A stretch of DNA of 64,000 nucleotides, from assembly GCA_963971575.1 (NCBI GenBank), contig OZ020617.1:21723403-21787402 (forward strand). Direction: 5' to 3'. Below are positions 9,324 through 35,842 of this stretch, piece after piece. Numbering within the stretch: the stretch's first letter is position 1; each line of letters starts with the position of its first letter. Source of the stretch: Liopterus haemorrhoidalis. Lineage: Eukaryota; Arthropoda; Insecta; Coleoptera; Dytiscidae. The translations under genes and the position numbers were made by a program. The notes below the pieces were generated by a model. The model did no database searches. It was not told the origin of the DNA and was given only the letters and a program-made list of their open reading frames with translations.

Positions 9324-9436
9324 CGCTCATGAAATTGTAGATAACTGGATTAATAGCACTGTTGGCGTAACACATCCAATGGAAAACCAGGGCTAAAGCT
9401 GAGTACGTGTCCGTTTGAGGCAAATTCATCGTTAAT
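9324..9436 (-). CDS. Internal exon of the same GPCR (extracellular loop 3 and TM7, NPxxY)
   Basis: On the minus strand a pyrimidine-rich acceptor (TTTTTTCTTCAG) precedes position 9436, and a GTATGT donor follows 9324. The exon starts with one base (A) that completes the AG left by the TM6 exon to give Arg. It then has 37 codons and ends with the first base of a Gly codon. The peptide reads LTMNLPQTDTYS (loop), then a TM7 helix containing HWMCYANSAINPVIYNF and ending in MS. NPVIY is the conserved NPxxY motif. The HWxxYANSAxNPxIYNFxSG form is typical of orexin and allatotropin receptors. The next exon should begin with the rest of Gly and a Lys-Phe cytoplasmic-tail start; I could not locate it below 9324. 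Exact phase match and order on the minus strand make it the direct continuation of the exon at 35.7-35.8 kb. Confidence 0.87.
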
Positions 9437-9851
9437 CTGAAGAAAAAATATACATTTTATTAATAAAAAATATGTATACTCATATAGTGAAACATTTGCA
9501 GAAACTTCTTAAAGCTTGTATGTTCAAAATAGGTATTTTTAGTCTTAAAATGATTCTGTTGATTAACTACACGATTTCATTCCAATATGGTATAATATAA
9601 TTATAGCTATTTAGTTAATTACTTTATCAGAAACACAATTTTAAGTTATTTCTACTTGCATTATTATTGACGTGGTTTTTAACCGTTGTTAACAGAAATG
9701 ATTTCTTAAAATTAATGATTTTAGAGAGCACTCCAGACGATTTATTTAAACAAAAGACTCACAATCCTATAAATTTAATCAACAGCTTACCCTAGTGTGA
9801 AAATTATGGAAAATTCGACTTAGGTTTTAGTGAGCCAACGATAATATAAAG

Positions 9852-10183
9852 CAGTGTTTGTCAACAGGTGGTCCGCGGACCACCAGTGGTCCTCAGAAAA
9901 ATTTTAGTGGTCCGCTTAAGTTTTTATATGTGTTTTTTGCAGTTTTTTTAAATTTTCATGTACATTTTTTGTGTAAATAATTTATATTTTCTGTAAACTT
10001 TCTGTGATTTTCTACAAATAAAATGAATGTATTTATTAGCACATTAAATATATCTGTTTTCTTGCAAAAAATGAACCAACAATTATTATTAGTGGTCCGC
10101 CTTAGAAAATTATATATTATTAATTGTTATTAATTAATAATTAAATTATAAATTATACATGCATTTTTGGTTGAGAAACACTG
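9852..10183. mobile_element. hAT MITE (332 bp) with perfect 8-bp target duplication
   Basis: The left end CAGTGTTTGTCAACAGGTGG and inverted right end CAGTGTTTCTCAACCAAAAA are hAT-type termini. The direct flanks ATATAAAG (9844-9851) and ATATAAAG (10184-10191) are identical. GTGGTCCGCGGACCACCAGTGG near the left end is palindromic. It has no coding capacity. Confidence 0.9.
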
Positions 10184-10369
10184 ATATAAAGTACAATGCT
10201 AAAGCTGCGTCCAGAGCTCTTTAAATTAGTTGATTGTGCATTGTTAATTGTGGATAAGTTTAGTAGATAGTTTTAACATTCAAGGCAGCGTTTACAGCTA
10301 AGGAAATTAGTGCGTTACGAATATTACGACATCACTGTGTCTTTAAACCAACTACAGTGGCTTCGTAAA

Positions 10370-11420
10370 AAGTTTATTATCTATTAACGTTTTCCTAATT
10401 CTGTTGTCCTAGATTTTTATTAACTAAACTTAACCTAATAGGGGATACGCATAAAATTTATATTTCCTTAAAACTACATTTTTTTGATATTTTAATGTTA
10501 GTTATGTCACCTAACACAACAAAAATCACATTTTAATTAATATTATAGCCAAATTTTTTAATTAAAATATTGTAAATTTGAAATAAGCCGACCACGCCGC
10601 GAAGGTTGCCGAGTAAATACGACTGAGACTGTAGCGGTTTGACGTCACAGATACAGTCTAAACATAATCTTTACGTGTGTATATTGTATTGTTTGAGACT
10701 TTTGTATTTTAAACAATTTTTCACGCATTTATTATTAAAATAATTTATAAAATATATGTACTCACATAAAAATGGTCTTCACAAACATAAAGTTTACTTT
10801 TTTCTGAAATATCGGTTTTATTTCGCCTCATAGCTTTCAGCCACAAATTTCGCCTTTTCTGTTGTTTTTCGCCATCAGGTAATGATATAAATTATTTTTT
10901 TGGATTTCTAATTGAACTATTTGTGCACATCGGTACTAAACAATATTTTCGACTATGTTTCGAAGTACTGGGGCCTGGATCTTCCATATTTTATATATTT
11001 TAATATAAAATTTAATTCGGTAAACATGTATAAATTGTTTTTATAGAATTAAACTTTATTATAATTAAAATCACTCTAACTTTACATAACCTATAAAAGT
11101 TATACAAACAAATAAGTTCATAACAGACTATGTACGCTGGGTAGGCTAGTAGTGTCATGCGTCAGCGGTATGACGTCACACGTCTTTTTCGCGCGCTACA
11201 TACATTTATGATTTTTTTTAAGCCTTCAAATTAAAAAAAAAAAAAAAAATTTATGTTTATATGCAACAAGAGGAATATAATAAAAAAAATTAAAAAAATC
11301 ATGCCTATCCCCTATTATCTAAATTGATCATATTTACTGATCGTCTTTGTAATTTTGGGCGATATTTGTTATAATCGGCACCATGACATTTTGTTAGGTT
11401 ATGTAAAGGCATACAATGTG
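10370..11420. repeat. Old repeat copy split by a later MITE
   Basis: Positions 10370-10438 and 11323-11420 are two halves of a repeat also found at 37690-37925. The left half ends with TCCTAGATTTTTATTAACTA and further bases up to TTAACCTAAT, and the right half starts ATTATCTAAATTGATCATAT. In the 37.8-kb copy (inverted) the two halves are contiguous, which gives an empty-site comparison for the insertion between them. Confidence 0.65.
10439..11323. mobile_element. MITE-like insertion with ATAGGGGATA termini
   Basis: The left terminus ATAGGGGATACGCATAAAAT and inverted right terminus ATAGGGGATAGGCATGATTT form a terminal inverted repeat. The roughly 885-bp element interrupts an older repeat whose uninterrupted form is at 37.8 kb. 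It contains two TGACGTCA-type palindromic sites and no ORF. The superfamily is unclear; the target duplication is at most two to four AT bases. Confidence 0.65.
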
Positions 11421-11785
11421 AACGTTCACCCAAATGTAAACTGAGATAGCCAGTGTGTTTATACGTCTGTCTCATTAAAACATCTCACTAACTATAAGTT
11501 TGGAAAACTATCGACAATCGATAACGTATAACTTATTAAATTTAGAGCTCTGAACGATTGCTCACGTTACCATATGACAAACTTGTTAGTGACAATCAAC
11601 AGTGCACAAATCATAGCCTATAGTTGACTAATTAGAATTCTGAACTGCATAGAATAATAGGCCATATCCATGCTTATCTGGAACGACTCTTACATTTGTA
11701 AATTGCTAACCAATAAATTCATTGGGTGGTAGGCGGTTAGGACAATCATAAAAAATTGATGTGAAGTGTGAATTTTCACACATTT

Positions 11786-12802
11786 CAGGGTTTCGCAGGT
11801 ATTTATTAACTGTGTGATGATTATTTGGGATGCCAAAACAAATTTTATGTCAAAATATTTTTTTATGAATTTTAATTCGAATGCCTAATACCATTATTTA
11901 AGTTTCTAAATATGTGCAGTATTTTTTTTATATAGCAAGGTTCATTAAGATTTTGAAAATTGTGCCTATGGCTTCTATTGGCTGTTTTAATTCATAACAC
12001 CGCCCCTCTGATTTCGTATACATTCAAACATAGAATTAAATTATAATTTCAACACTTCCCTGGAACTAGTTATTAAATTTACGCTTTTAAAAATTAAATG
12101 CAACATTTACCAAAATATAACTAGAATTTTGACAAAATAAAAATGCAAAAAAAAAACTGAAAAAATAAAAATTGACGGGATTCGAACACAGTTTCTTACA
12201 GTAGTTTCAACTCACTAGGCGAGAACGCTACCACTGTGCTATACAGGGTCACTAGTTTACTATGTTAAATAGCGGATTAAATATATTACATATTTTACTT
12301 AAAAACACAAAAAATGCGTTATTTTCCGAAAACATAATCTGATCAAAAATTCCTGTTGTACTATTCCGGTTCACACCAATGTACATTACTGAGAATTTTT
12401 TCAGATTTTTAGTTTAAACCATCTGGGCTACAGGGTGTGGGACAAAATTTTTTTTGCACAATTTTGGCAAAAATCGCCTCAAAATAATTTATTTTGCAAA
12501 AATAAAATTTTGATCGTTAATCCACGTACCAAGGGCTTTCATTTGATACCCTACACAGAATTGTAAAAAAATATATTTTTTTTCGATGAGCACATATTTG
12601 TTTATATTTTTAGGGGGATATGTTTTTTAGATGTTTTAGTATTTTTCCTATGTGCGGGTCAAAGAGTTGTATAAGCATGCAAAATTTCAACTCTCTAGGT
12701 TTAGCCGTTTGGCTACAATTTTTACCGAACAGACAGACAGACAGACAGACAGACGACAAAATGACGGTATAAGGGTTTTTTGGTCATACCTACAAAACCC
12801 TA
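11786..12802 (+). mobile_element. Repeat family ending GGTCATACCTACAAAACCCTA, copy 1
   Basis: CAGGGTTTCGCAGGTAT at the left and ATACCTACAAAACCCTA at the right form an imperfect inverted pair. A CAGACAGA microsatellite lies at 12731-12754, just inside the right end. The same arrangement recurs at 40835-41466, in a truncated inverted copy at 29013-29110, and in pieces at 15600-15690 and 19860-19980. About 35 bases to the left of the inverted repeat are also shared with copy 2, so the true element may begin near 11753. No ORF of note. Confidence 0.65.
12174..12250 (-). repeat. tRNA-like sequence (degenerate tRNA or SINE head)
   Basis: On the minus strand the segment reads TATAGCACAGTGGTAGCG (A-box-like) followed by GTGTTCGAATCCC (B-box-like). 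An AGTGGTAGCGTTCTCGCCT block between them resembles a tRNA. Acceptor and T stems do not pair well and no A-rich tail follows, so it is a pseudogene or SINE head rather than a working tRNA. It lies inside repeat copy 1 and is absent from the copy at 40.8-41.5 kb. Confidence 0.5.
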
Positions 12803-13189
12803 AAAAGGAATGGGTTGTATTGAGTAAAAATTGAAATGAAAATAAGAGATAAAACAAATAAAATATTTCGAAATCCAGGTATCCAGGCCAGTTTTATTTG
12901 AAATTTAATTTTATCTGAACCAGACCCTGTTTCTTTTCTAATATTGAGGATTACGGCAATAAACTTTCAATTGATATAATGATCTCAGATAACTGCATTT
13001 GTCAGTTTATTTAGTTTAGTTTTCTATTCTGCTGCATTTCGTCAATTCCGAGAAAGCGTAGAACGAACTAACTTCTGCTACTATGGCTTTTAATCTTTTG
13101 TTATATATGTAGTATATATTAGTGAATTACATGCAAATTACATTTTAAAACATATTTTGTTATACTATGAATTTCTTTGTTTCAAATAT

Positions 13190-13500
13190 CCGATTATATT
13201 TTTGCTAGTTGTCGTGCCCGTACTTCGGTCGTTTTATGTATCATACATTCTTGCTGTAAGGTAAATAATAAGTGAGATATTTCAATTTCAGGGTACGCTC
13301 CAAATAGCCACCCAATATACATTTTATTAAAAACTCCACCGAACAAAACATCATTTTTTCATTCTAAACAAATTTTCTCATACACATTTTTGATATAAAG
13401 TGAGATATTTCAATATTTTAATTTATGGCGTTGCCTCGTTACTTTAAAATTTCAAATATTCATCCATTTGAATAAAAAGAACAAAACAAGTTGGGTTTGA
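13190..13500. repeat. Degenerate tandem repeat shared with 59140-59880
   Basis: After GTCGTGCCCGTACTTCGGTC come two diverged units, each with AAGTGAGATATTTCAAT and a CTCC or GCC/CAAATA block. The same opening (CTATCGTACCCGTACTTCG) and four such units occur at 59140-59700. No coding potential. Confidence 0.5.
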
Positions 13501-13529
13501 CCAATTTTTGTTACATTTTTGCTTAACTA

Positions 13530-14409
13530 TTAGGTGTAACGGAAATTTTTTTCATTTTAATCATTAGTGCAGTATGCGAACTAGTCACGACTTATTCGCT
13601 GAATTAAACAGATGTCTTTTGCGTTTTGATTAAACTCTGTAATCTTGAGTACCTAATTATTGTTTTCGTTTTATTTTAAACCTTTGCATTTTAAAATGGC
13701 GGAAGAATTTTCATCAAAACATTTTTTATGCTGTTTAATGTGGTATGAGTACCATAAAAAAGATTCTGCTACAGTTGCTTCATAAAACATTTGCACTGTT
13801 TATGGTGATAAACTAAGTGTACGCACATGTGAACAGTGGTTTAAAAAATTTAAATCAGGAAATTTATGCTTGGATGATGAACTTATATCTGGAAGGCCCT
13901 ATAAAGGAATAATTTATTAGATGTTAAAACCGGGGCAAAGTGTTAATTCTGATCTTTACTGTGAACAATTGGATAGACTGAATCAGAAATGGACCAGAAA
14001 TCGGCCAGAAATTGTGAATAGAAAAGGACTTATTCTTCAAGGCGACAATGCCTGACCTCATTCATCAAAAAAAGACACGTGAAAAAATTTTCGAGCCTGA
14101 TTGGGAGGTTCTAACGCATTCACCCTACTCATTTTACCCTCCGACTATCACTTATTTCGGTCACTGGAATAATTTTTAAGAAACAAGACACTTAGAGATA
14201 TGGACCATGTTAAAATGAGCCTTGAACAATTTTTTCCTTAAGAAAATCAGGAATTTTATAAATCGGGAATGTTTTCTCTTCCTGATAAATGGCAGAATGT
14301 TATAGATCACAATGGTAACTATATTACTCAATAAAGTACATTTTCTTCTTTCGATTTGTTTCTATTTTAATAATATCAAACAAATGAAAAAACTTTCCGG
14401 TACATCTAA
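13530..14409 (+). mobile_element. Mariner transposon, internally deleted, with intact ends
   Basis: The left TIR TTAGGTGTAACGGAAATTTT and inverted right TIR TTAGATGTACCGGAAAGTTT continue matching for 28 bases. TA flanks both ends (13528-13529, 14410-14411), the mariner target duplication. The length is 880 bp. Confidence 0.92.
13694..14330 (+). pseudogene. Mariner transposase, degenerate
   Basis: The plus strand encodes broken pieces in transposase order. The first piece is the HTH region, with a CLMWYEYHKKDSATVAS stretch and CEQWFKKFKSGNLCLDDE leading to SGRP. After a deletion come LKPGQSVNSDLYCEQLDRLN, LILQGDNA (second catalytic Asp) and a degraded third-Asp region, SPYSFYPPTIT, where the usual SPDLAPSD-type motif is lost. 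In-frame stops lie between the pieces. The first catalytic Asp falls in the deleted part. The product is non-functional. Confidence 0.85.
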
Positions 14410-14649
14410 TAATATGCATTATTTCATGTTTTTAGTTAGCGTCTTTTCTAGAATATACATTTTGAGATGTCATTTAGCCTGAATTAAATTCTAGTTTTGT
14501 TTCTATCATTATGTCAAATTTCTTTAAAAATAAAAAACGAGAAAAAAAAATAGATATCTATAGTTTCTAGTTTTATCTATGTAGAAAGATAAATTTCAGT
14601 AGCTAGTGTTTTGCAGGACTTGTTTGAACATGACGAAAATTTTTTTAGT

Positions 14650-15300
14650 TTTTCATATAGTTGGTTAAAAAGTCTTTGGTGTCGTTTTCGGTTTCCCATT
14701 TAAGAGGCCCCTTTTTTGAAACATATGTGGGCCAGCCTGGTAAATTCTGTCTTTAGTCTTGTAAGCAATATTTGATTTTATCTTTTTCCGTAGGTCTATA
14801 GCGTCTTTCACTTATCTTCTTATGTTTTATGCCCGGTTTCCTTCCTCTTTGACCTGTTCTTCTCCACGCCTGGATATATGCATCACTGAATTCTTTCGAT
14901 TTTTCTTTATCTGAAGCCGAACATACCATCTTTTACTAATAATTATCTTTAAATTACCAAATACTTGGTCTGCTCACTAGCTAGCTCCACCTGATGTTAG
15001 TAACCAGTGACATTGTGGATATCTGAATTTTTCATTCGGTCTCTCAAGATTATACCAAACATCGTATACATTATTGCTCTTTAGGCAACGCTAAGCTTTT
15101 CATCTGAGATTTTTGCTAGGCTAGTGGTTTTAAGCCCATATGTAGCGACGGGAAGAATAGATGCATCGTTTAGAATTCTTTGAGGCGAAGTTCAATTTGC
15201 CGAAAGCTGCCTAGCGTGTTCTAATTATTCGGTTGATTTCTCCCGCAAGCAAGCCTGTAGCTGCAAACGTTAAATCGTCTGTACTTGTTATCTGACCGCT
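14650..15300 (-). pseudogene. Probable RTE-like LINE remnant
   Basis: Minus-strand frames contain INRIIRTR and AAFGKLNF, which resemble the region after the RT domain of RTE-like LINEs (commonly AAFGK-type). Broken sequence with NVYDVWYNLERPNEKFR follows. Stops and frameshifts are frequent. The assignment is by resemblance only. Confidence 0.35.
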
Positions 15301-15399
15301 AGGCAAGGGCACGGACGTGAGTTCAATTTCTACTTATGTCAAATAATTTGTGTAAAAATATTTATACAAATTACAGGTTTTGCTTAGCCGTTCGCAACC

Positions 15400-15562
15400 G
15401 GCTTTAAACTGTAGGTGCCTTTCTGTGTACGCTAAAAAAATGGACGTAATACTACCCATATTACTCGTGAATGTACATAGATTGAAAACATAGTCATGAA
15501 ACCTGGAAACAGGAGGCCTTGACTGACTTCGGGCTGTAGTGCCAATGATGATGATGATATCT
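15400..15562 (+). repeat. LINE 3' end with GAT-rich tail
   Basis: CTGACTTCGGGCTGTAGTGCC followed by AATGATGATGATGAT looks like the 3' end of RTE-like LINEs, which often close with a short GAT/ATG-type microsatellite. No coding sequence of this element is attached. Confidence 0.45.
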
Positions 15563-15799
15563 CCCGTCTAATAATCTGTTTGATCAAATTTAATACATTT
15601 TTTGGACACAATAAAAAGTTCGGTAACTGTCGAAAAGTAATCCGATCAAAAATTCAAAGTGTAATATTCCGGTTCACATCAATGTGCATTATTTTGTTCA
15701 TAAGGTAGAGAACAAAAAAAATTATATATATGTGTATATTTTTGTATATGTTTATTTATATTCAATTACTATGACTGCATTCACAAATAGCATCTTCAT

Positions 15800-18700
15800 A
15801 AGTAAGTCCGTACAGCGTCTGCCTCCAGGGGAGCGGCTGTATGGTTTACGTCAGCTTAGGATACAGCTAGCGGAGGAGGAGCACTACTCCCAACGGTAGC
15901 TGATGCTATGCGAACACCAGTTGCACTGCGGTGTAGAGGGCGCCGTACTACCAAACATTTTAGTACTGCGGCCAAGTGCTGCGATCCTTGGAGTTTGTTC
16001 GATGTCTTAACCTTGTTATGCCTCGAATATTAGAACTTCACAGACCAAGATAGTGCCATCGGTAGCCGTGCAATACTCCTGGCACTTAAATATATCATAG
16101 CACAATCAGTCACAACACTGTATTTCATCTCTAACACAATGGAGCAGGAAAGCCACATCCTGCCTAAGCATTTTCCAAGTCGCCGCATCAAGGAAATAAA
16201 TTTCAAAATGAAAATTTGCACCTGGAATATACGAACTCTCCAGGACAACCCAACATCTAATAAGCCGGAAAGAAGAACAGCTATGATCGCTAACGAACTG
16301 CAAACATACGACATAGACATCGCTGCTATTAGTGAAACACGCTTCCCCGAATCTGGACAGCTCACGGAGATAAAGGGAGGTTACACCTATTTCTGGTCCG
16401 GACGCAAACTACATGAGAAGAGAGAATCGGGCGTTGGCTTCGCTATTCGTTCGTCACTACTCCCTCTTATGGACAAGCCCCCAATGGGGATCACAGACAG
16501 GATTATAACAGCTCGTTTTTGTTTAAAAGCCAATAAATACCTGTCACTCATCAGCATCTACGCTCCTACGATGCAGCATGATGATGAGAGCAAGGAAAAA
16601 TTTTACGACGACTTAAGACATGTCCTGGATAAAGTTCCTCGAACAGATAAACTGCTACTCCTTGGCGACTTTAATGCTAGAGTAGGCAGGGACGCAGCAA
16701 ATTGGACTGACGTAATCGGCAAGCATGGCACTGGAAAGTGTAATAGCAATGGTCTTATGCTTCTTACATTATGTCAGTCTTATGGACTAACAATAACCAA
16801 CACCATCTTCCAACTTCCTAATAAATATAAAAATACATGGATGCACCCAAGGAGCAAACATTGGCATCTGATTGATTATATCATTACGAGGAACACTGAT
16901 ATCCAGGACATATTAATAACAAGAGTCATGAGAGGTGCGATCTGCGACACAGACCACAGACTTGTAAGATCTAAATTAAATCTTTATTTCAAACGAGTTG
17001 ACAAAAGACCTAGAACAATACCCCCGCGAATGAACACGGATATTCTAAGGGATTGCTCAACACGGATGAAATTTGCAGAAGAAATTTCGAAATGCGTATC
17101 GGGTATCAACAACTCAAATATCCGATCGCCGGAACAGCAGTGGTTAAGTTTATCTACTGAACTGTACAACACTTCCGCAAATTTCTTAGGCAAAGTTAAG
17201 AAAAGAAATGAAGACTGGTTTGATGAAAACGTCGCAGAAATCAGAACTCTTGTTGAAACCAGAAAGTCTGCAGAAATAAAGTGGCAAATAAACAAAACGG
17301 AAATTAATAGAGTCGCCATGTTGGAGGAACGAAGGAAGCTAAGAAATAGAACAAGAGAACTAAAGAATAAATGGTGGACAGATAAAGCAAATGAGATCCA
17401 ACAATTTGCTGATACTAACAATTTAAAAGCGTTCTATCAAAGTCTTGTTAAAATCTATGGACCCCGGCGAAAAATCTCAATGCCTCTGAAAAGTAAAGAT
17501 AACTCCACGTTATTGTATACTGCGAACGATCTTCTCAATAGATGGCGTGAACATTTTAACGAGTTACTTAACACTTCGTACCCACGAGACGAGACTGTCA
17601 CTGAACTGCTCCCACAGTACCATGTATGGGAAGATCTGGATGCTACGCCAACGCATTATGAAGTTGAATGTGCCATCAATCGTTTGAACAATAATAGAGC
17701 ACCTGGTTCTGATGGCATACCAGCTGAAATAATAAAATACGGTGGAAGCGCGATAGCTGTTACGCTGACACATCTTATCCACAACATCTGGGAAACTGGT
17801 CAGATACCTCAAGAGTTTAAAAATGCTATCGTACGTCCTCTGTATAAAAACAAAGGTAGTAAAAGTAGCTGCGATAATTATCGCGGAATATCTTTACTTT
17901 CATCAGTAGGCAAAGTTCTCTCAAATATCTTGAACGACAGATTGAACATCATATCTGAATTCCACAATCCAGAGTCCCAAGCTGGGTTCAGGAAAAATAG
18001 AGGATACAATGACATGATATTTTCGCTTCGTCAGCTGCAAGAGAAATGTACAGAGCAAAACAAACCGCTCTATATGTGCTTTGTCGATTTCTCGAAAGCA
18101 TTCGATACAGTGCCGCGAAACATATTATGGGAAGTATTACGGAAATTTGGCTGCCCTCCGAAAATACTACATCTTTTGAGAGAACTACACTGTAACACGA
18201 AAGCTTGTGTGTCTTCTAACGGGGAGTTTTCCTCTGAATTCTCTGTTACAATTGGCACAAGACAAGGATGTGTTCTTGCGCCTAGTCTGTTCAATATATT
18301 CTTAGCAGCGGTTCTAGAGATAGCCTTCTGTGATTATATCGGTGGGGTCCATATCCGGTACCGCATAGATGGCGGCCTGCACAGGTTATCTCGTTTCAAA
18401 GCTGCATCTAAGCTAAAGTACGGCGTCATTCAACAAGCTCTGTATGCCGATGACTGTGCTTTAGTTTCAAATAGTCCTGAGGATCTGCAAGATGCAATAA
18501 CCCGCTTGGCTACGTCAAGTACCCGATTCGGACTCAAGATCAGTCTGTCGAAAACAGAAGTCATGGCCAGAACAACTAATGGTAACGCAATACCAGATTT
18601 CTTTGTCGGCGATGAAGTACTGAGAATTACAAAAACCTTCAAATATTTAGGGAGTATACTTTGCAACGATGGTAATTTGGACTTGGAGATAAATAATAGA

Positions 18701-19510
18701 ATATCTGCTGCAGCTAGAGCTTATGGCATGCTACGGAAACGAGTTTGGCTAAATCACGATCTGAGGTTACAAACTAAACTGAGCGTTTATAAGTCGGTCA
18801 TAATACCTACACTGCTATATGCATCTGAAACATGGACTCCATATCGACGGCATATTCGTCAGCTGGAAAAATTTCACCAAAGATGCCTACGCACTATTTT
18901 GCGAATCAAGTGGCAAGATCATATAGACAATGTACGAGTATTAAATGAAGCTCAAGCGTGCAGTATAGAATCACTCCTAGTCAGAAATCAACTGCGATGG
19001 ACTGGCCACGTTGTACGTATGTCCGATGACAGACTACCCAAACAGCTGTTGTACTGTGAGCTGCAAGAAGGTCAACGAAATATTGGTGCTCCCCGAAAAC
19101 GGTATAAGGATGTTCTCAAAAACAACCTAAAAACTACAAACTTGCTGAATAACAACTGGGAAACTCTAGCAACTAACCGCAACTGCTGGAGGAAAACAAT
19201 TCAAGATGCAGTTGCTGTATATGAACAAAGTCGCCAGCAAGCTGTGAGAGCTAAAGCGGCTGCCAAGAAGAATAGGATATCGACGGGAGAAGGAACCTTT
19301 ATGTGCGACATATGTGGAAAAAATTTTATTGCTAGAATTGGCCTTATAAGCCATCTCCGTGCCCATGAACGTAGAAGATGCACTACGCTCTAGAACATCT
19401 TATATATGTGTATGTGTGCATGTGTATATATTTGTTTTTATATGCATATGCTCATATTATTATTGTAATTTTTTTGTGACTCCCGTAGTCGGACACGACG
19501 TTGGGATTAT
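15800..19510 (+). mobile_element. RTE-like LINE, apparently full-length coding region
   Basis: A 5' leader of about 340 bases, noticeably less AT-rich than its surroundings (CAGCGTCTGCCTCCAGGGGAG onwards), precedes the ORF at 16139. The 3' UTR runs to about 19510 and includes TGTGACTCCCGTAGTCGGAC and CGACGTTGGG, a block echoed after the related remnant at 51.7 kb. The insertion splits a copy of the CAGACAGA-bearing repeat, whose halves lie at 15600-15690 and 19860-19980. Exact ends and target duplication are not clear. Confidence 0.75.
16139..19393 (+). CDS. Endonuclease/reverse transcriptase of an RTE-like LINE with C-terminal C2H2 zinc finger (1084 aa)
   Basis: One uninterrupted ORF. Residues 24-275 form an AP-type endonuclease: KICTWNIRTL with Asn30, ISETR, LLLGDFNARVG (Asp177, Asn179), and the catalytic end motif TDHR (Asp272, His273). 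Residues about 515-800 form the reverse transcriptase: NRAPGSDGIPAEI, FVDFSKAFDTVPR with Asp650, TRQGCVLAPSLFN, YADDCALV with Asp771/Asp772, and YLGSIL. A basic region follows. The last 30 residues hold a textbook C2H2 finger, C1056-x2-C1059-x12-H1072-x3-H1076. The product nicks target DNA and copies its own RNA there. All catalytic residues are present, so the copy could be competent. The Met at 16139 is the first in frame before the EN domain; an alternative is Met24. Exact clade is not decided. Confidence 0.92.
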   Translation: MEQESHILPKHFPSRRIKEINFKMKICTWNIRTLQDNPTSNKPERRTAMIANELQTYDIDIAAISETRFPESGQLTEIKGGYTYFWSGRKLHEKRESGVGFAIRSSLLPLMDKPPMGITDRIITARFCLKANKYLSLISIYAPTMQHDDESKEKFYDDLRHVLDKVPRTDKLLLLGDFNARVGRDAANWTDVIGKHGTGKCNSNGLMLLTLCQSYGLTITNTIFQLPNKYKNTWMHPRSKHWHLIDYIITRNTDIQDILITRVMRGAICDTDHRLVRSKLNLYFKRVDKRPRTIPPRMNTDILRDCSTRMKFAEEISKCVSGINNSNIRSPEQQWLSLSTELYNTSANFLGKVKKRNEDWFDENVAEIRTLVETRKSAEIKWQINKTEINRVAMLEERRKLRNRTRELKNKWWTDKANEIQQFADTNNLKAFYQSLVKIYGPRRKISMPLKSKDNSTLLYTANDLLNRWREHFNELLNTSYPRDETVTELLPQYHVWEDLDATPTHYEVECAINRLNNNRAPGSDGIPAEIIKYGGSAIAVTLTHLIHNIWETGQIPQEFKNAIVRPLYKNKGSKSSCDNYRGISLLSSVGKVLSNILNDRLNIISEFHNPESQAGFRKNRGYNDMIFSLRQLQEKCTEQNKPLYMCFVDFSKAFDTVPRNILWEVLRKFGCPPKILHLLRELHCNTKACVSSNGEFSSEFSVTIGTRQGCVLAPSLFNIFLAAVLEIAFCDYIGGVHIRYRIDGGLHRLSRFKAASKLKYGVIQQALYADDCALVSNSPEDLQDAITRLATSSTRFGLKISLSKTEVMARTTNGNAIPDFFVGDEVLRITKTFKYLGSILCNDGNLDLEINNRISAAARAYGMLRKRVWLNHDLRLQTKLSVYKSVIIPTLLYASETWTPYRRHIRQLEKFHQRCLRTILRIKWQDHIDNVRVLNEAQACSIESLLVRNQLRWTGHVVRMSDDRLPKQLLYCELQEGQRNIGAPRKRYKDVLKNNLKTTNLLNNNWETLATNRNCWRKTIQDAVAVYEQSRQQAVRAKAAAKKNRISTGEGTFMCDICGKNFIARIGLISHLRAHERRRCTTL

Positions 19511-19626
19511 TTATTTAGAGAACAATAGTATTTTGAAACCTTTTTTGGCTAATATTGAGTTTTTTTTTTCAAAACCAAAATTTTGTTCGTTCAAGTATTA
19601 AGTATTTTTTTTTCATGTACCTCAAA

Positions 19627-20651: not shown

Positions 20652-20655
20652 ATAT

Positions 20656-26159: not shown

Positions 26160-26400
26160 TATTTTAACACGTTGAGCCCCACATGCCGATCGGTGGATCA
26201 CTCCTTTAAAACGTTAGCGGCCCGCGGGTTCACGGGTGAGCACGCGGCAATTTCTACTTCGGGACCGCGTGTGTACCGGTGGGTATGATTTAAATAAAAT
26301 TTAGGTATAGTAGTCCATTCGCCGGTGCCTTGAAGAGATACCGTATATAGCGGTCTTGGCAGGTTTGACATAGAACTCATTTTTAAATGATTTTTTTGAA
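26160..26400. repeat. Possible piggyBac-like fragment
   Basis: TTAACACGTTGAGCCCCACATG at 26164 resembles piggyBac-family termini, which begin at a TTAA target and commonly read TTAACRCGTT. A second AAACGTTAGCGGCC follows at 26207 and a GC-rich stretch to about 26280. A matching inverted end was not located. Confidence 0.3.
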
Positions 26401-27550
26401 AATACAAACATAAATTTTTAATTTTTATATAAGTTTCATTTAAGATATAATAAGTAATTAATAACTACTAAAGAAAGGATGTCAGAACTGCTATATACTA
26501 CTATTTTGGGTGGGGAGGCACTTAACTGTTGTGTAATGAATCTCACTGTTATGTAAAGAATACATGTAATTATTTTTTTCGGACAAAATACTATCTTATA
26601 TGCAGCAAATCTTTAAATTTACTCCATTTTCGAAATCTACGACTTCTATTTACCCGAAATTGATATAGAACTCGACATATTTGATAAATAGCAAAATTCA
26701 ATTTTCGAACGATATTTCGAAAGCGACTTCATTTGAGACCAGGTGCTGCGGACAAACCTAAGCAAATAGATGCATTCCCTATATGCATGGAGCATCTTAC
26801 TTATATGTTATAATTTACAGCTGGTCCTGCCGGATATGTTAATATTTTTATTTAATTTCGGGCAAATTCCGAATAATAACAAGTCATATGCCTTTTTTTT
26901 ACTTCATTTTTGTAATTTACAGGTCCAATTTGGCCGAGAACGACAAAAGGTGTCAAAATAATACAAAGTTGAGACTTTACGCATTTCGGCCGCTATCTTA
27001 ATTTCGGCGCCCCTCAGAGAAAAATTCCGCACATATTCTAGTAGCCAAGGATATGCCCTACAGATTAAGGAAGAATTGAAATAAAATGTTAATATACGCA
27101 TATTTGCAGTGATAGAGTAGTATATCATCATGTCTTGAATTTGGGAAAAAATCTATCAAAATTTAAAATTTTCGCCATTTTGATAACAGATTCGTAATCT
27201 ACGATATTAAATTAATAGAAAACGAACCATATCTTAGTTAATATATCATTCGTTAGCCATTTCGGAAATCACTTTTTTGCGTCTCAAAATGAATTATGCA
27301 CGGTATTTTGTAAACTAAGTGACGAAAATTCGCATACGACACGGCAAATATTAGCTAATGGTCTATTCTACAAATATGTATTTAACCATTTCGATCATAA
27401 AAAATAGTTATCGTTATCGTAATTGGCGCGCTATTTTCGCCGCCATCTTGAATCTGTCTCCCTTCACAAATAGGTGCTGGAGGTCAAAGTTTTTTATTTA
27501 TTTATAAAGAACACGTCTGTGCAGTATCAACGTAAAATATGGTTCGTAGG
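26400..27550. other. AT-rich sequence, no gene recognised
   Basis: Two related phrases near 26990 and 27440 (TTTCGGCCGCTATCTTAATTTC and TTTTCGCCGCCATCTTGAATCTG) suggest an old internal duplication. No coding frame is supported. Confidence 0.4.
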
Positions 27551-27558
27551 CACTAGAC

Positions 27559-28102
27559 CAGTAGTTCTCAATCTTATTTGAACTACCGAACTACTAAGTG
27601 TTCCTCGAAATCTACATTCTTTAAGCGAACAAACAGAAAGATATATGTATCTATATTTCTACCTACGTTCTAAAATATAGTAAGGAAAGATGTTGTAAAT
27701 AAGACACCTTGAAGCTTGAAATTAAAAATTATTTATTAAAATCATATTCTCATGTAATGAGAAGGATGAACCTGGTGCGCTGCTTTCAATGTATCAATAC
27801 TCGGCTCTATTTTTGTCAGCAGTATTCTTAAATCACCGCTATTAGGTATTTGCAGTCGGTTTCTTTTTTTGTTAATAGATTTGTGACCGTACTAAACCCA
27901 CGTTCCACTAAATATGATGAACGAAATGCAATTAACAACTTTTGTATTATAGCCCATAACCCAGGATAAGCTGTAGGAATCTGCTTATTTATGCCCCTTT
28001 ATTTTTATTCAACGCACCCCAAATGCACCCGAGGCTACTATCGCCTCCTGGTTCGTACCAGCGCCCCCCAGAGGGCAGTATCTCCCACTTTGAGAATCAC
28101 TG
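27559..28102 (-). mobile_element. hAT element (544 bp) with perfect 8-bp target duplication and transposase fragment
   Basis: The left end CAGTAGTTCTCAATCTTATT and inverted right end CAGTGATTCTCAAAGTGGGA are hAT termini. The flanks CACTAGAC (27551-27558) and CACTAGAC (28103-28110) are identical. Between about 27960 and 27760 the minus strand encodes the end of a hAT transposase. Confidence 0.92.
27760..27960 (-). pseudogene. C-terminal fragment of a hAT transposase
   Basis: The minus strand reads LLIAFRSSYLVERGFSTVTN, then LLTKKRNRLQIPNSGDLRIL and a Lys/His-rich end. The SSYLVERGFS segment is the hAT dimerisation region, found at the C-terminus of ZBED-like hAT transposases. The DNA-binding BED finger and catalytic residues are absent from this short copy. 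Confidence 0.75.
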
Positions 28103-28110
28103 CACTAGAC

Positions 28111-28990
28111 AATATGCTTGGAACTAGAATGGTTGAAATCACAAAAACCTCGATGGGACATTTTCTTGCGGCACATCCCTATCAACATTTTTGTGTCATT
28201 GTAACATGGTATCAGTTAAATTCAAATGCTATCTCATACCCGGAAAAGGAGTAAAAGTTTTTTTCTTTTTTTTTTAGTCATTTACAGTGAAGCGTCACTA
28301 TTTTGTTTTTTAAATGTTATTCCGAAAAATAAATCTAACATAAAATCTTTTGATATCAACGTAACCATTACTTCTCAAAACAGACCAGAATTTTAGACAG
28401 TATTGTTAAGAAAATTGAATCATCTACGTTTCCTGATAAGGGTTATATTCCACATTCCATTAGGTATTTAATAGTTATGAAGATACCATAGAAACACTTT
28501 CACAGTGTTTGCGCTATTACGAAGGATATCAAAGAGCAACAGGAAAATTCACTTACTAACTTTATAAGTTAAAAATATCTTCGTTAAAGTTGTATATTTT
28601 GTTTTGCATTTAGCTTTTGCAGAACATTTATATTTCACTATCTTGGCTTCTAGGATCGTTGCTAGACGAAAGTACTTATTTTTATGCAGAGAAACAAAAA
28701 ATATAATATCTTCGTTCTCTAGGGTGTCTTTCCACAAAGTAGATATTATTTCTACTATTTTTAGTATTTGTTATTATTTTTGTAGGAAGCTTCCAGGAAA
28801 GCTCTCCTGGGTGAGATTAAAATCAAATAAACAATGGTACAAAAGTAATTTTATAACACATACTAAAAACCTGAAACAATAATACATGTAGACAATTATA
28901 TTTAAACTCAAGAAAAAAATATTGTGTATAAAAGAAACAGGGCAGAACGTGAATTTTGGAGTATCAATATTAGTTTTCAAATATGTAAAT
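28111..28990. other. AT-rich sequence, no gene recognised
   Basis: Overlapping open stretches on both strands at 28550-28880 have no recognisable domain and low-complexity composition. Confidence 0.4.
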
Positions 28991-29012
28991 GAGGTGATAT
29001 TTCAAATATTTA

Positions 29013-29110
29013 ATGTTTTTTAGGGTTTTGTAGGTATGACCAAAAAACCCTTATAGCGTCATTGTGTCGTCTGTCTGTCCGTTTGTCTGTCTGTCTGTCT
29101 TTCTGTCTCC
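29013..29110 (-). repeat. Truncated inverted copy of the CAGACAGA-bearing repeat family
   Basis: TTTTAGGGTTTTGTAGGTATGACC and ACCCTTATAG are followed by the (GTCT)n run. This is the reverse complement of the right ends at 12802 and 41466. The other end is missing. Confidence 0.75.
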
Positions 29111-30284
29111 ATGTAATTCCTGAGTCCTGAGGGTTTCCTCACTTTGCACTATGTAACGTACATAGTGCAAACATAAATAGATCGATGAAACATTATATTA
29201 GCTCTTAAAGCATTTGATAATATTTGCACTCCTATAGTATTATTATTATTATCCTTGGAGTTTTTCAAATCTTGACAAGTGTCCACTATTCGCAAACTTG
29301 AGTAACTTTTTGAGCCAATTATTATTATTATCATTTTTTTTTTTTTTTCAAAATATATAGGTAATTTCTTAAATATAATTTCGATAAATAAATTGTAACA
29401 GAAAAGCCATGTGCTAACTATATTTCACATTTTTTGAAAATCTATAAAAACTTTCCAGACACTTGGAATGATGATAAGTAGAAAAGTATTCGAGAACATC
29501 AGCTATGACATTTTCTCATCCAACCTGACAAACAAGAAATAGAAATAAATGTGTTTTTAAAAGTGCAATGTTTCAAACAATTTTAGTTAGTGGACATCAA
29601 ACTAACATAAAACTTAAAACACAAGTTTAAACACAGAATGAACTCTTTACTCAACTACGATATATTGATTTTTAAAAAAATTTTTTTTTTTTACAATTGC
29701 AATAAAAAGTAAGCTTTTGCGCTTTGAGAACACTGCTAAGTTGAGATTTACTGGGGGTTTTCACTTAGCGCTCTAAAGCGCATTATGGAAAATTCACTCG
29801 CTTTAACCTATAAATGTCAGCTAATAATTAAATATAATTTAAATATGAATAGAGATTTTATATTGAGAACTAACACGCGTTTAAAGCGATAAGTATGAAA
29901 TATGCAATCCAAACCTTCCCTGGGAGACAATCGCATTTTAATGCACTCATTATGGATCTCGCGTATACAGTTCACGCCAGTGAGCTCTAAATGTGTGGAT
30001 GTATTGTATGAATATTAGGGATTGTATTACCGGGTAACCGGTTTACCGGCAAATTGTCAAATTAACGTTCAACATTTGGTAAATTTTTGTAATTTACCGG
30101 TAATTCGGTGAATAAAAAATCTAAATTCGAAGTTTTTGTATACAAAATATTGTGTTTATAGGTATTTAAAAGAATATTTCAAATGAAACTAGGTAAGTAA
30201 CAATATATATATATATAAAATAAAACGCAGGTTGTCTTTTATTCGTCAGTTTATTAAAATAGTTCTTGTCAATTTATAAAATAT

Positions 30285-30490
30285 GAAACGTTTCGTGCAT
30301 GGGTAGTATGCACATCTTCAGTCAGTCAATAGATAAAATAAAATCACCACGTAGTCAACTCGAAGTTAAAAACTGTGTCAGTTTTTTTTCAACTGTGTGT
30401 GTTTGACTTCGAGTTTACTACGTGGTGATTTTATTTTATCTATTGACTGACTGAAGATGTGCATACTACCCATGCACGAAACGTTTCGTC
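30285..30490. repeat. Inverted repeat carrying two hammerhead-ribozyme-like cores
   Basis: The arms 30285-30366 and 30406-30488 are near-perfect reverse complements of about 82 bases with a loop of about 39. In the right arm the order is CTGAAGA (30451-30457), stem GTGCAT/ATGCAC with loop ACTACCC, GAAA (30478-30481), a small ACG-TTT-CGT hairpin, then GTC (30488-30490). This fits the hammerhead pattern CUGANGA-stem II-GAAA-stem III-UH. The left arm has the same core on the minus strand. Such motifs are known in Penelope-like elements and retrozymes. Stem I is not evident. Confidence 0.6.
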
Positions 30491-30504
30491 AAGAACCAAA
30501 TATC

Positions 30505-30507
<3 letters not shown>

Positions 30508-30535
<28 letters not shown>
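30508..30535. repeat. (AT)n microsatellite beside the foldback
   Basis: About 14 AT units. A shorter AT run lies on the other side near 30203-30218, so the foldback probably inserted in an AT repeat. Confidence 0.85.
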
Positions 30536-30539
30536 TTCA

Positions 30540-31235
30540 CACATTTTTAAGCATTGAACTAAAAAAAGCATTCATATGTAGCATAAAGGAGAGAATGACT
30601 AATTATTCAGACGTGTTACACTATTTAACAGACCCTAATTTGGTTTTTCCGGTTGAAGAAAATTATGGAATTTTTAATATAAGAAGTAAAGCCACAAGTA
30701 TTAAAAGTATTGTTGATATTGTAGAAAGCATCTCGTACAATTAAACAGACTCCAGCGATAGTAGTCAGAGTCACTTAAATGATTCGGATTCGGATTCAGA
30801 TTACGAGATTAATACTTCTACATCAAGTACTGAATTATCTATGAAGGAAAATCCTTATGTCCTTATTAAACAAAATACGGATATGGCTCAGGGAGTGTCA
30901 GATTTAGAAGAAAAGAACACTAAAGATCTGAAAGAGCTAATAAAAAAAAAAAGAATTAGAGTACTTTCGACAAGAAAAAATACGAAGGAAGTACATTCAA
31001 ATAGTTTTTGATTATTTGATGACCATTCGTCCAACGAGTGTTGAACTTGAGAGAGTATTTTTGGGAGCTGGATTATTTTGCACCAAAATTAGATCTCAAT
31101 TAGGAGATAAGACTTTGGATATGTTAAGTTTCTTAAGAAGTTATTTTTTTAAAATGTTATTTAATAAGAATTGTTCTACATTGCTATTTCTGTATTATTT
31201 TATTAATATTTTGTTTAGAGTAATATTTTAATTTT
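30540..31235 (+). pseudogene. hAT transposase, C-terminal part, degenerate
   Basis: The plus strand gives KKAFICSIKERMTNYSDVLH and LTDPNLVFPVEENYG up to a stop at 30742. An acidic Ser/Asp-rich linker and a Lys-rich segment (LKELIKKKRIRVL) follow. After a frameshift comes FDYLMTIRPTSVELERVF, then LFCTKIRSQLGDKTLDMLSF and LRSYF, the hAT dimerisation domain (31010-31150). Stops and shifts make it inactive. The N-terminal half was lost or replaced by the nested foldback. Confidence 0.8.
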
Positions 31236-31619
31236 TATGTTTTTCATATTCTATATTTTTCGTTACTTTGAAATAAATGTGAAATACAAATCGAAATTTC
31301 TTATATTTCTTAATACCTTAATGTTATTTTTCAGGAAAAAAATACTGGTAATTTACCGGTAAACAGGTATTTCAATTTTCATTTACCGAATTACCGGTAA
31401 ACGAAAAAGTCGGTAAATTTACAAACCCTAATGAATATGAAATTTTTAAACTCCACCAATCGCACATCTGTGTGTAATCGGATGTTAAACGTATGGTGGC
31501 ACGCATGGTGGACTCACCTGCCAGTAATTTGACCACAAGTTATCTAGATCACCTTGAAGTACTGTTGCTTGCGTAATAAGATTATTGTGTTATCTTAAAT
31601 TTGGTATCACCGGTATGGA

Positions 31620-31785
31620 AGGAGCATGTGGACGAAACTATGGATTTCAAAGTGGCAACATAAAATTGGAAGGGGGTTAGAACTGAACCTTGCGGTACAC
31701 CACTGAGGATTTCTGCAGAGACACATAGTCTCGAAACTTTGTCGAAAGCATGAGAGAAATCGAGATATATAATATTAATAGGCTT
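31620..31785 (-). pseudogene. Reverse-transcriptase fragment of a Jockey-like LINE
   Basis: The minus strand reads NIIYLDFSHAFDKVSRL and, after a deletion of the intervening RT residues, ILSGVPQGSVLTP. The first matches the RT motif with the first catalytic Asp (LDFSKAFDxV). The second is the GVPQGSxLxP motif. Only a few residues separate the two instead of the usual 60 or so, so the copy is internally deleted. Confidence 0.75.
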
Positions 31786-31789
31786 TACT

Positions 31790-33700
31790 TATAGAAGAGC
31801 TAATACTTATTGAACAATAATTATTTGCATCAAACTTGTCACCCTTCATATAAATAGGGATTACATAGAATTTCCATTTGCAAGGGTCTACCAAAGCGTC
31901 ATTGCATTTATTTAATATTAATGACGGTATGTTATCTGGTTTCAAGGGACATGATTCTTATGTACTACCTCAGAAATTACTTCGATGGATTTGTAAAAAC
32001 GATTGTAGAAAACTCCTGAGTATATTTTTAGCGCAAAATGTATTGCCGTTTTCATCGGTGCAATATTCTTAATCTCGCAAAAATGTTATTAAGGACATTA
32101 TATAGCTCTACAGTGAATACAATCATTTGTAAAGGAACTTGTTTATTGAATTTAACTCTACAATAAAGTAAAATAATAGAAAAGTAGTTCAAAAGCAGCA
32201 CACATGAATTGTAAAATAAATTAATCAAAACCACTACCGCACTGTTAAAAGCAGTGAGGTGTGATCCAACATATATACCAAATTTACACTACTTTTAATG
32301 ACTTAGTTTCAGTTGAGCCCGACACTATTTCGTGAATTGCAAAATGGTGTTATTTATAGAGTAGCTATTACTTTTCATTAACACTATATCACAATATATC
32401 CAACTGAATAGGTTGAAAGCTCTTTTTCGACTAATGTATATGCAACCAATTTATCATGTGTGTTGTGTGGATTATATACAAATACTATTACGATGCTCGA
32501 AAGAATTCGAAAATGGCAGGAAAGTGCAGTAACAGGTATGTTACAATAGCAGGTTTTTGGAACGTCATTTGTAATATGCAGAGGCCGGCACTTATATACA
32601 ACGATACTTTTGCCATAGGCGTGCTATTTTAAACTTGATTTTGAACGAATAAATGAGTAATAATTTTTAAATTCTTTTTACTTATAAAGCGTTCTCTCTG
32701 ATTTAAGGATACTATATATAAACTGTATTGGGTATACCAGGTTCTTTTCTCAAAGCCTATTTGACATAGGAGATTGGTAAAAAAGGGTAATTCCAGTAAT
32801 CATATGTTCTGTCTGATAATGTTGTTTACATATGTGAGGAAAATTGGAAATAAACAGAAAGGCCCCTCCTTCTAACATCTATTATACGAATATAAAAAAT
32901 ATTTTTAAACTTGTTCATTACCCTATGATAAAAATGAACAAAATGATAAGCCTTATTCAATCATTAAAAGTTAGTAAACTTTAATATCCTAGTTCCGCTG
33001 TAACTAAAGTAACAGACTATTCTTACATTAAATATCTTGAGTTGAAGTGAGCTGTTTTTATAAATAAGTCATTTTCATTTCATCTTGACTTTTTGTGTAA
33101 TTTTTAGTACAAACTTTCGAATATATTAGTTTTCATGAATTTTTATTTATTTTTTTTATATAGGTACTTTCATAATTTGTCATTTTTCATAACATGTCAC
33201 TTTTTCCTTTTGACATTTAGAATTTGGCTGCCAATATGAAACATGAAATAAACACTAAGCTCTTTACAACTTGAGAAACTAAAAGTCCAGTTTAGTTCCC
33301 CTTAAACATAATAAACAGTATAAAGAAAAAGATAAAATGGATATGAGTAAAAACAAATATCTTTACTGCATCGTATTAATTCGTTAATACGAGCAGTATC
33401 AATAAAATTTTAAACTGGAAAGCATGAAGGAAACTAGGTAAAATCTGTATTCAATATTTTTAGTTTCATTTTTGTTCTTGAACAGAGAACAAAATGCCGT
33501 TCCTGTTTCCGTACTTTAAAAAATTTTGGTAATATGTTTATTTTGCTTTCGTTTTTGGTTTGTTCTCATCCTTGACAAAAATTGAACTAAAGAGTCGGGA
33601 GTCGATAACTTTTTCCGACTCCTCCAAAAAAGCCTCTTGCCTAGAGGCGCAAAAGATCCTCTCGAGGATTTAGTCTGGATGCATAATTCGTAAAAAAAAT
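31790..33700. other. AT-rich sequence, no gene recognised
   Basis: No domain, bounded repeat or RNA gene was seen in about 1.9 kb. Confidence 0.4.
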
Positions 33701-34291
33701 ATATATTGTCTTTTAGTTTTACAGGGACTTTATCACATCAGTTCGCCTTCAGCGTTCACGCAAAGCTAGCTTCTTTTTATAGAAATTTCCATCACCTTTC
33801 TCTAGACCACTTGTGTAATGTTGTCTATTTCCTGTCGCAAGTTTTCTTTTAAGGCCACTATATTCTGTGGCAACTTCACTTATACTTCAAACAGCCCCAG
33901 AGGAAGAAGTCAGGAACGCTCATATCAGATGGTCTTTCCGGCCACAACACTTTGCCAAAACATAAATCATCCTAGGAAAGTTTCCTTCAATAACTTCAAA
34001 GTATCGCGCGCTGTGTGTTTAGTGGCATCATCCTGCTGGAACTACATTCAATATGAACTCATCTAATTTGGATATCAAAAAGTGATGTAACATGGTTCTG
34101 TAACGTTCGTTGTTGCATGAACTGCTTTGCCGATAGCGTCTTTAAAAAAAATAGTACCCAATCTCTCTTTCAACATAAACACCGCAACAAACAGTATTTT
34201 TTTGGGGATGTAAAGAAGTCGGGTGCTTAATTGGAGGGTTTGCAGTTCCCCAAAAGGAATTATTTAGTCGATTTTTGACGACTGTGTTACC

Positions 34292-35374
34292 TAGGGATGA
34301 GAATTTATTTTTGAATATCGATATATGCGCGATTCGATATATCGTAAGTGTGATATCGATATTCGATATATATCGAAGTAAAAATATCGATATTTTCGAT
34401 ATATCGAAATAACTAAGACGTAACATGTAAGATATATAAATTACAGTTTTGATTGGCTTGGCGGGAAAAGAAGTCACCACTTGACAGACAATCACTTTAC
34501 AGTTGGTACTCACCCAGCTACCAACCAACTTTCAAATATTTTCCTACTTAACTGCTCTCTTAATTAAATATATATATGCTGTTCACTTTTGTAAGGACCA
34601 ACCAGATCTTTTTGGTTACTTTTATAGTGTACTACGGACTTTGAATGTCAATTAAAAATATTCCTTACGCTGTAAAACCGACGTTAGGTTTATTGGTTAT
34701 GATCATTATTAAGAAAGTGACATTTTTTATAATTTTTTAATATCAACATGACATACAATTTCAAAGATGCAAATTATTGAAAACAAAATTTCGCGTTATA
34801 GGCTAATCCAAACGATTAGACGGAACTAAATGGAAATTTCGTTATTTTAGGTTGTCACGAAAAGGGACCTTGCTTTGGTTATTTCATGTTTCAGGCTTGG
34901 AATGTGAAAATTTAAAATTTCAACAGTGAAACCATGGAAACGAATGACATATATCCAATATTTTAATACATTTTTCCATATTTTGAAGACAAAAAATAAA
35001 TAAATGGGAAATTTTTATAAAGAATGACAAAAAATTAAAATGCAATGAAAATTACATTTTATAATGACAATCAATTTAAACTAGAATTTGCAATGTGAGT
35101 ATGATTTACAAAACTTAAACAAAATGACCAAAAGTCCAAATTAATAGATAAAAATTACTAGATTTCAAAATCTAGTTCCGTCTAAACGTTTGGAATAGCC
35201 TATAGTTCGTTTTTACAAAAACGAGCAGCATATATTTAAATGTAAAACATATACAAGAATACGATAATTTGTGCGAATATCGATATATAGGGCGATATAT
35301 CGCATTTCAAATATCGATATATTTTACTAAAGTATCGACATTTTCGAAATGTCGATATATCGTTACCATCCCTA
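34292..35374. mobile_element. hAT element (1083 bp) inside the transposase remnant
   Basis: The termini are TAGGGATGAGAAT and, inverted, TAGGGATGGTAAC. The flanks are GTGTTACC (34284-34291) and GTATTACC (35375-35382), an 8-bp duplication with one mismatch. Both ends carry dense TATCGATATATCGA-type palindromes. No transposase remains. A 400-bp MITE (34801-35200) is nested within it. Confidence 0.87.
34801..35200. mobile_element. TA-flanked MITE, family A copy 1 (400 bp)
   Basis: The termini are GGCTAATCCAAACGATTAGA and, inverted, GGCTATTCCAAACGTTTAGA, each continuing CGGAACTA. TA lies on both sides, as for Tc1/mariner targets. Internal sequence is shared with 44790-45590. Confidence 0.87.
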
Positions 35375-35688
35375 GTATTACCCTCATCGAAATACGCGTT
35401 ATTTTAACACCTACCAATTATTTCGCAAAAACATCGTCATTATTATGCAGCGTTCTTAAGAAGTATAGGTAACGCTAGATTGTTTAGTGTCCTGTATTTC
35501 ACATAGTTATCCTGCTCAGCTGTCACAACACGTATAACATCAATCGCCAATTGCAAAACTGACGGGTTTTTCAAATAGGGTGATATATTTTGCGCCACGT
35601 GATGTGTTTCAACCTATATTTGAATCAGTGTTCAACTCTCACCAACCACTAGCTAGATGAACATAATATAATTAAAAATGTAATTTAC

Positions 35689-35842
35689 CTCATGACGGAA
35701 AAGAGATGAACTGGAAAATAGCAAACAGCAAACATGACCACAACGGCTACTAACATTTTAGCAGCCTTACGCCTGGATCGCAGCTGTCCTTCGGTGCTTG
35801 CATTTGAGTTCATAGTAAACGTGTTACTGCGACGGTTACTTC
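35689..35842 (-). CDS. Internal exon of a rhodopsin-family neuropeptide GPCR (loop 3 and TM6), allatotropin/orexin-receptor-like
   Basis: Read on the minus strand, this exon follows a splice acceptor (ATTTACAG before position 35842) and ends at a donor (GTAAAT after 35689). It holds 50 complete codons with two spare bases at each end. The protein begins with a polar, Ser/Asn/Thr-rich third intracellular loop. The basic stretch RSRRKAAKM follows, then the hydrophobic helix LVAVVVMFAVCYFPVHLFSV. The CYFP motif marks TM6, matching the CWxP position of class A GPCRs. The ARRKxAKMLxxVVxxFAxCYxP pattern is known from allatotropin and orexin receptors. The last codon is split (AG) and is completed by the first base of the exon at 9436. 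A receptor of this type sits in the plasma membrane, binds a peptide and signals through G proteins. Receptor exon: sure. Exact ligand class: inferred from recall, not from alignment. Confidence 0.85.

Follow-up and report, generated by a model that had tools for sequence, protein, structure and literature searches.

Two receptor exons in the window

The window analysed here, a stretch of 64,000 nucleotides from the beetle Liopterus haemorrhoidalis (C6:21723403-21787402 in its own genome assembly of 1.02 Gb and 91 contigs), holds two short minus-strand exons of a G-protein-coupled receptor (GPCR), which we assign to a putative insect allatotropin receptor (ATR) gene extending beyond both ends of the window. 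Exon A (coding exon 4; window 35842-35689, C6:21759244-21759091; 154 nt) encodes the end of intracellular loop 3 and transmembrane helix (TM) 6 with its CYFP motif, and exon B (coding exon 5; window 9436-9324, C6:21732838-21732726; 113 nt) encodes extracellular loop 3 and TM7 with NPVIY. Exon A is bounded by the acceptor ...aatttacag/GA (phase 1) and the donor ATGAG/gtaaat (phase 2), exon B by the acceptor ...ttcttcag/ATTAAC (phase 2) and the donor AGCG/gtatgt (phase 1), and the minus-strand GT-AG intron between them (9437..35688, phase 2) measures 26,252 nt. Joined, the exons give 50 codons, an Arg split as AG/A and 37 codons, i.e. 88 residues without a stop. This peptide matches the Pfam profile 7tm_1 at 1.1e-16, with exon A alone covering profile positions 190-225 of 260 and exon B alone the neighbouring 232-260.

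In a protein collection, 252 proteins matched the A+B peptide at E<=0.001, and the best 120 of these 252 underlie every count of relatives given below; all 120 also matched both exons in tblastn. A hidden Markov model (HMM) built from them and run against the 3503 stop-to-stop segments of the whole window returned the two exons at E 1e-30 and 3e-21, with the next best segment at 1.1, and placed them at adjoining positions in the correct order (282-332 for exon A, 331-376 for exon B). The distance to the next segment and the order of the profile positions argue against a chance resemblance, and the same search found no further receptor exon in the window. All 20 columns that are invariant across the relatives are retained in the two exons, as are 34/34 columns in which at least 115/120 agree. 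The Arg at the junction is present in 120/120 relatives, and the residue after exon B is Gly in 116/120, in agreement with the prediction from the phase-1 donor. A private change was noted in TM7 next to HW, where Phe occupies a position that is Ser in 105/120 relatives and Phe in none. An earlier note, made from the window sequence, had proposed these two exons, and its reading holds base for base, including the canonical splice sites of the TM6-TM7 intron, the exact Arg join and the assignment of CYFP to TM6 and NPVIY to TM7.

Reading through the exon B donor (window 9323-9270, minus strand) yields a short alternative tail, MSGMYSHSFILMPSGIFQY, followed by a stop, and reading through the exon A donor meets a stop immediately; intron retention at either exon would truncate the receptor. 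Four weak tblastn hits within the window, at 40.1, 53.6, 21.6 and 2.3 kb, had come up as candidates for upstream exons; the best has an E of 0.002, and they were rejected because of stops or an HMM E of at least 1.

The remaining exons of the core

A Tribolium query against the beetle's own genome located three further exons on C6, all on the minus strand and in order upstream of exons A and B. Exon 1 (C6:22288192-22287551; 642 nt counted from the start codon, which is preceded by an in-frame stop) reaches to TM2 or early TM3, exon 2 (C6:21925107-21924960; 148 nt) carries TM3 with DRWYAI, and exon 3 (C6:21836324-21836082; 243 nt), which lies outside the window, carries TM4-TM5. The five exons join into 433 residues without a stop, in phases 0-1-1-2-1 and with GT-AG at all four introns, which from exon 1 to exon B measure 362,443, 88,635, 76,837 and 26,252 nt, the TM6-TM7 intron thus being the smallest found in the gene. 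The right part of the window (35843..64000, minus strand) supplies 28,158 of the 76,837 nt between exon 3 and exon A, and no receptor exon was found there. Insects with large genomes are known to have long introns, with a mean of 11.12 kb in the locust (PMC8011201, excerpt).

No second ATR core was found in the beetle's own genome by a search that scores only the best candidates. Matches of the Tribolium query outside C6 with E <1e-12 reach at most 39% identity, and none of the other GPCR loci retrieved from the assembly contains a DRW(Y/N)A reading. The gene appears intact and, as far as searched, single. Six peptide patterns from the Tribolium receptor had no match in viral contigs.

As a side observation, the genome gives 142 matches to 7tm_1 when each exon is scored separately; some receptors cover the whole profile in a single frame (e.g. 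C11:10382872, C8:38788549), others only as pieces tens of kilobases apart.

Two last exons downstream of the window

The left end of the window (1..9323, minus strand) forms the first 9,323 nt of the intron between exon B and the tails. No C-tail exon was found there with a profile of 111 tail starts, for which the best score was -5.2, as compared to up to 3.4 in other 9.3-kb pieces of the window and at least 27 for the tails used to build it; a GRFRLPL reading followed by a stop at 6346 was dismissed as a chance match. Four stretches covering the next 40 kb below the window also gave no tail exon.

A pattern combining an acceptor with GKFR-x-EF gave three matches in the genome, all on the reverse strand, and its reversed control gave two. 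Two of the three lie on C6, on the minus strand downstream of the window. Tail alpha starts at C6:21598261, 134,464 nt from exon B, behind the acceptor ggcttcag/GG, and encodes 68 aa (GKFRREFRRAFAQCC...NARI) before a stop, with AATAAA 63 nt further on. Tail beta starts at C6:21512959, 219,766 nt from exon B, behind the acceptor tttgtttcag/GG, and encodes 83 aa (GKFRKEFRSTFGCNCC...SSTYIYRFTTGGSTIARTEVVPLSQL...DAD) before a stop, with AATAAA 475 nt past it. Both acceptors are in phase 1 with exon B and join it inside the Gly codon, so that one set of seven-TM exons is followed on the same strand by two phase-compatible last exons, 85 kb apart. The third match, on C10, was discarded, as its tail is just 10 residues long. 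By arithmetic, the predicted products have 501 (alpha) or 516 (beta) residues, and the gene spans 775,484 bp from the start codon to the beta stop.

Since only one ATR core was found, against two tail exons, the exon B donor (CG/GT; window 9322..9325, minus strand) is most likely the fork between them, and the same receptor core could probably be made with either of two tails.

Tails of related receptors

Without its first 14 residues, tail beta (the beta core) matches 29/115 relatives' tails at E<=0.1 and 18/115 at E<=0.001. The best match is orthopteran (2e-14), and the others come from beetles, leafhoppers, an ant and two unnamed sources; the beta core thus resembles the ATR tails of four insect orders. 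With TM7 plus beta as the query, a database search scored 103 candidates, of which 45 proteins were returned. Twenty of the 45 are from ants and others from wasps, bugs, a few beetles and flies, chelicerates, molluscs, a nemertean and a brachiopod; in several cases the match is confined to TM7 and helix 8, about 30% of the query. Among 35 new tails from this search, those of the nemertean, the brachiopod and a chiton match the beta core weakly (E 0.003-0.04) and contain RTE. The first 14 residues of alpha are identical to the Chrysoperla tail. When whole tails are compared, alpha gives the higher score for 44 of the 114 with a match and beta for 70, in many cases through nothing more than the shared first residues.

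Several observations point to alternative tails in relatives as well. The Exocentrus model P0020 carries an alpha-type tail and then a beta-type tail, in the same order as here; the Tribolium receptor (isoform X1) has an alpha-type tail and that of Zophobas (isoform X2) a beta-type tail, on closely similar cores. Two relatives' models end in MSGK, and a Hyposmocoma isoform pair shows a six-residue difference exactly at the Gly after TM7, both of which would fit an intron at the same place.

A number of points weigh against a single gene with two tails. Beyond its first 14 residues alpha matches only 1/115 tails (E 0.006), such that only its start is conserved, and most of the beetle tails that match locally are absent from the list of the TM7 plus beta search (103 candidates scored). 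The Exocentrus model looks automatic, being named a hypothetical protein, and no single species was found in which two annotated isoforms share an identical core but differ in the tail, the tail types having been compared between species. The pattern search, although run through 1.02 Gb, would let a tail exon with a divergent start escape. Finally, the Tribolium query finds 52% identity over 62 residues in a piece on C4; as the sequence of this piece diverges from ATRs around TM1, it was taken for another receptor and rejected as a second ATR.

We also considered a normal ATR gene that uses one tail exon only, the widely conserved beta, with alpha as a decayed or duplicated relic. The near lack of detectable relatives of alpha beyond helix 8, with the beta core as the conserved one, would be expected of such a gene. 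However, alpha has a clean acceptor and an open 68-aa frame ending in a stop, with AATAAA close behind, shares its start with Chrysoperla, and is the better match for the 44 tails mentioned above, including that of P0011, a full-length receptor read from a 1,856-base contig. We therefore regard a one-tailed gene as unlikely.

Searches of the open-licence literature in PubMed Central listed no publication on an insect ATR with two C-tail exons, and excerpts of PMC4357254, PMC3510462 and PMC6585902 do not mention receptor tail isoforms.

Receptor family

The 433-residue core matches 7tm_1 over profile positions 1-260 of 260 (E 2.5e-63), as a rhodopsin-like seven-TM receptor does. The DRWYAI signature follows TM3 in exon 2 (SIDRWYAICYPL), in agreement with the E/DRWYAI motif class present in 381/392 allatotropin and orexin receptors (PMC6629687, excerpt). 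In blastp, the highest score of the core is to the Carausius (stick insect) allatotropin receptor P0024 (64.8% over 349 aa, E 5e-169), and the 15 best rows show 52-66% identity over 332-456 residues, i.e. the core is closest to insect ATRs. For the A+B peptide, the best of the matches listed comes from a click beetle, in a protein that is partial (72%, 5e-38). Where species are named among the 120 relatives, they are insects, Daphnia and one ostracod, and the names given to the proteins vary between orexin receptor-like, neuropeptide receptor A5 (Bombyx), allatotropin receptor (Carausius), hypothetical and, in one case, 5-hydroxytryptamine receptor 1-like. Among solved structures (PDB; best 60 of 685 matches), orexin receptors fill the top 12 rows (9.5e-17 to 4.3e-15), and somatostatin receptors come next at 1e-10. 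The comparison of the exon peptides with known GPCRs, which the earlier note had suggested, thus returned receptors of the allatotropin/orexin type, and the likeness that it had seen is upheld by the orexin receptor structures and by the ATR and A5 relatives.

A tree of 305 columns joined the receptor with Chrysoperla, beside beetles (support 65.6/92), and one of 88 columns placed it beside beetles without Chrysoperla; of these two placements we prefer the first, with reserve. Both trees hold ATR-type sequences only, and other GPCR families lie outside their test. Judged by sequence, the receptor is nearest to the insect ATRs, a family orthologous to the orexin receptors.

The gene could alternatively encode another peptide receptor of the orexin-like type, one without a response to allatotropin, as most named relatives are only called orexin receptor-like or are uncharacterised. 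This we hold to be very improbable in view of the identity to a protein named allatotropin receptor, the DRWYAI signature and the kinship to Bombyx A5, which responds to allatotropin, as does A16, A5 having the higher affinity (PMC6602202, excerpt).

Scarcely credible is that exons A and B, with or without the other exons, form a partial duplicate or pseudogene fragment cut off from a working gene: the window alone would allow it, with just two receptor exons found and 28 kb upstream and 9 kb downstream empty, but the exons lacking there continue the gene on that strand with matching order and phase, the search brought up no second ATR core among the best candidates that it scores, and 34/34 conserved columns are retained. 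A processed pseudogene, raised as an alternative in the earlier note, does not apply, because the introns (GT-AG, 26-362 kb) are kept and the receptor's other exons line up in the right order along one strand of a single contig; nor is the frame decayed, there being no stop in 433 codons.

In our view, the two window exons are very probably part of an insect ATR gene on the minus strand that looks intact, spans about 775 kb and has a five-exon seven-TM core that is joined to tail alpha or tail beta.

Mobile elements and repeats in the window

The content of the TM6-TM7 intron was assessed by six-frame Pfam scans, the mariner and THAP positions being converted from residue numbers. A long interspersed nuclear element (LINE) of about 3.3 kb lies at 16139..19393 on the plus strand, antisense to the gene, with one open reading frame (ORF) of 1084 aa encoding an endonuclease and a reverse transcriptase. 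It is accompanied by a mariner-like transposase fragment (13717..14019, plus strand, about 0.3 kb; HTH_48 and Transposase_1) and a THAP domain fragment (10766..10942, minus strand, 0.18 kb), either P-element-like or host-derived. The remaining Pfam frames of this intron gave no match. The intron had been described as transposon-filled in the earlier note, which is borne out only in part: these three features take up roughly a seventh of it, and the Pfam scans assigned no element to the rest. The earlier note also placed most mobile elements of the window in introns, and this is so provided that the gene model is right, because exon 3 then lies beyond the right end of the window and both tail exons beyond its left end.

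Also within this intron, a fold-back or MITE-like (miniature inverted-repeat transposable element) feature at 30285-30487 has 89-nt arms that are 97% inverted, with 25 nt between them. A dispersed repeat ending in ...GGTCATACCTACAAAACCCTAAAAA occurs in both orientations at 12500-12806, 29016-29094 and 41230-41471, and looks like the 3' end of a LINE or a short interspersed nuclear element (SINE). Further LINE pieces lie in the intron upstream of exon A at 46517-49582 (minus; split into several ORFs), 51315-51664 (plus), 53816-55289 (minus) and 61180-62352 (minus). Two nested pairs of inverted arms (60144-60409 with 63520-63785, and 62353-62518 with 63314-63479; 89% and 91%) enclose a 48-bp tandem array at 62888-63075, possibly as one composite element. 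Downstream of exon B, a tRNA-derived SINE at about 3739-3960 contains a tRNA-like match (3761-3833, plus strand, Rfam tRNA, 37.1 bits), and this SINE head is the single Rfam match at the gathering threshold. The SINE sits in a mariner-like element identified by eye (minus strand, about 4700-3570) and is flanked by a 13-bp direct repeat, CCTAACGACTTTT, marking a nested insertion.

Discussion

Based on the arrangement of the exons, we propose that the gene would operate as follows. A primary transcript of about 775 kb would be spliced into the shared five-exon seven-TM core, the exon B donor being joined either to alpha, 134 kb downstream, or to beta, 220 kb downstream. The resulting receptors of 501 and 516 residues would bind the same peptide, presumably allatotropin, and differ in the cytoplasmic tail, which would probably give them different desensitisation and trafficking. 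More tentatively, and in our view somewhat short of an even chance, insect ATRs may carry an ancient tail switch, by which a common seven-TM core receives either alpha or beta as its last exon. In that case, beta (core STYIYRFT...RTExxPL) would be no younger than the early winged insects and might go back to the protostome ancestor. As alpha and beta are 85 kb apart, the tail choice may depend on how far the polymerase runs, such that selection of the last exon would be coupled to the length of the run.

Allatotropin has been linked to juvenile hormone synthesis and to gut and heart muscle activity in insects (PMC3510462, excerpt). If the two tails are true, receptor studies based on a single cDNA have tested only one of two forms, and the tails would offer a handle on receptor desensitisation. 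In addition, exons of about 50 residues that lie tens to hundreds of kilobases apart are easily truncated by automatic annotation; among the 120 relatives, 13 are models of fewer than 300 residues. The 362-kb intron further makes the locus a test case for splicing accuracy.

Among known systems, the gene shares with the insect ATRs (Carausius P0024; Bombyx BNGR-A5 and A16) the 52-66% identity, DRWYAI and several introns, the Rhodnius ATR likewise having five exons and four introns (PMC4405368, excerpt), and differs from them in its span, its 362-kb intron and the presence of two last exons in one gene. Vertebrate orexin/hypocretin receptors provide the solved structures most closely related to the TM6-TM7 peptide (the 12 best PDB rows). 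Their ligand differs from allatotropin. Human HCRTR2 is also a large gene (108 kb; PMC4018553, excerpt), yet far smaller than 775 kb. In Bombyx, ETHR-A and ETHR-B likewise arise from one gene by mutually exclusive 3' exons, giving two receptor forms (PMC8175484, excerpt); there the segment from the end of TM4 to the C-terminus is swapped, whereas here the fork follows TM7, which would leave the tail as the sole difference. The Aplysia tachykinin-related peptide receptor A/B belongs to another receptor family and phylum, and its tail effect was tested, whereas here we infer it; as predicted for the present gene, a single gene gives rise to isoforms that differ only in the C-terminal tail, in Aplysia with different desensitisation (PMC11365428, excerpt).

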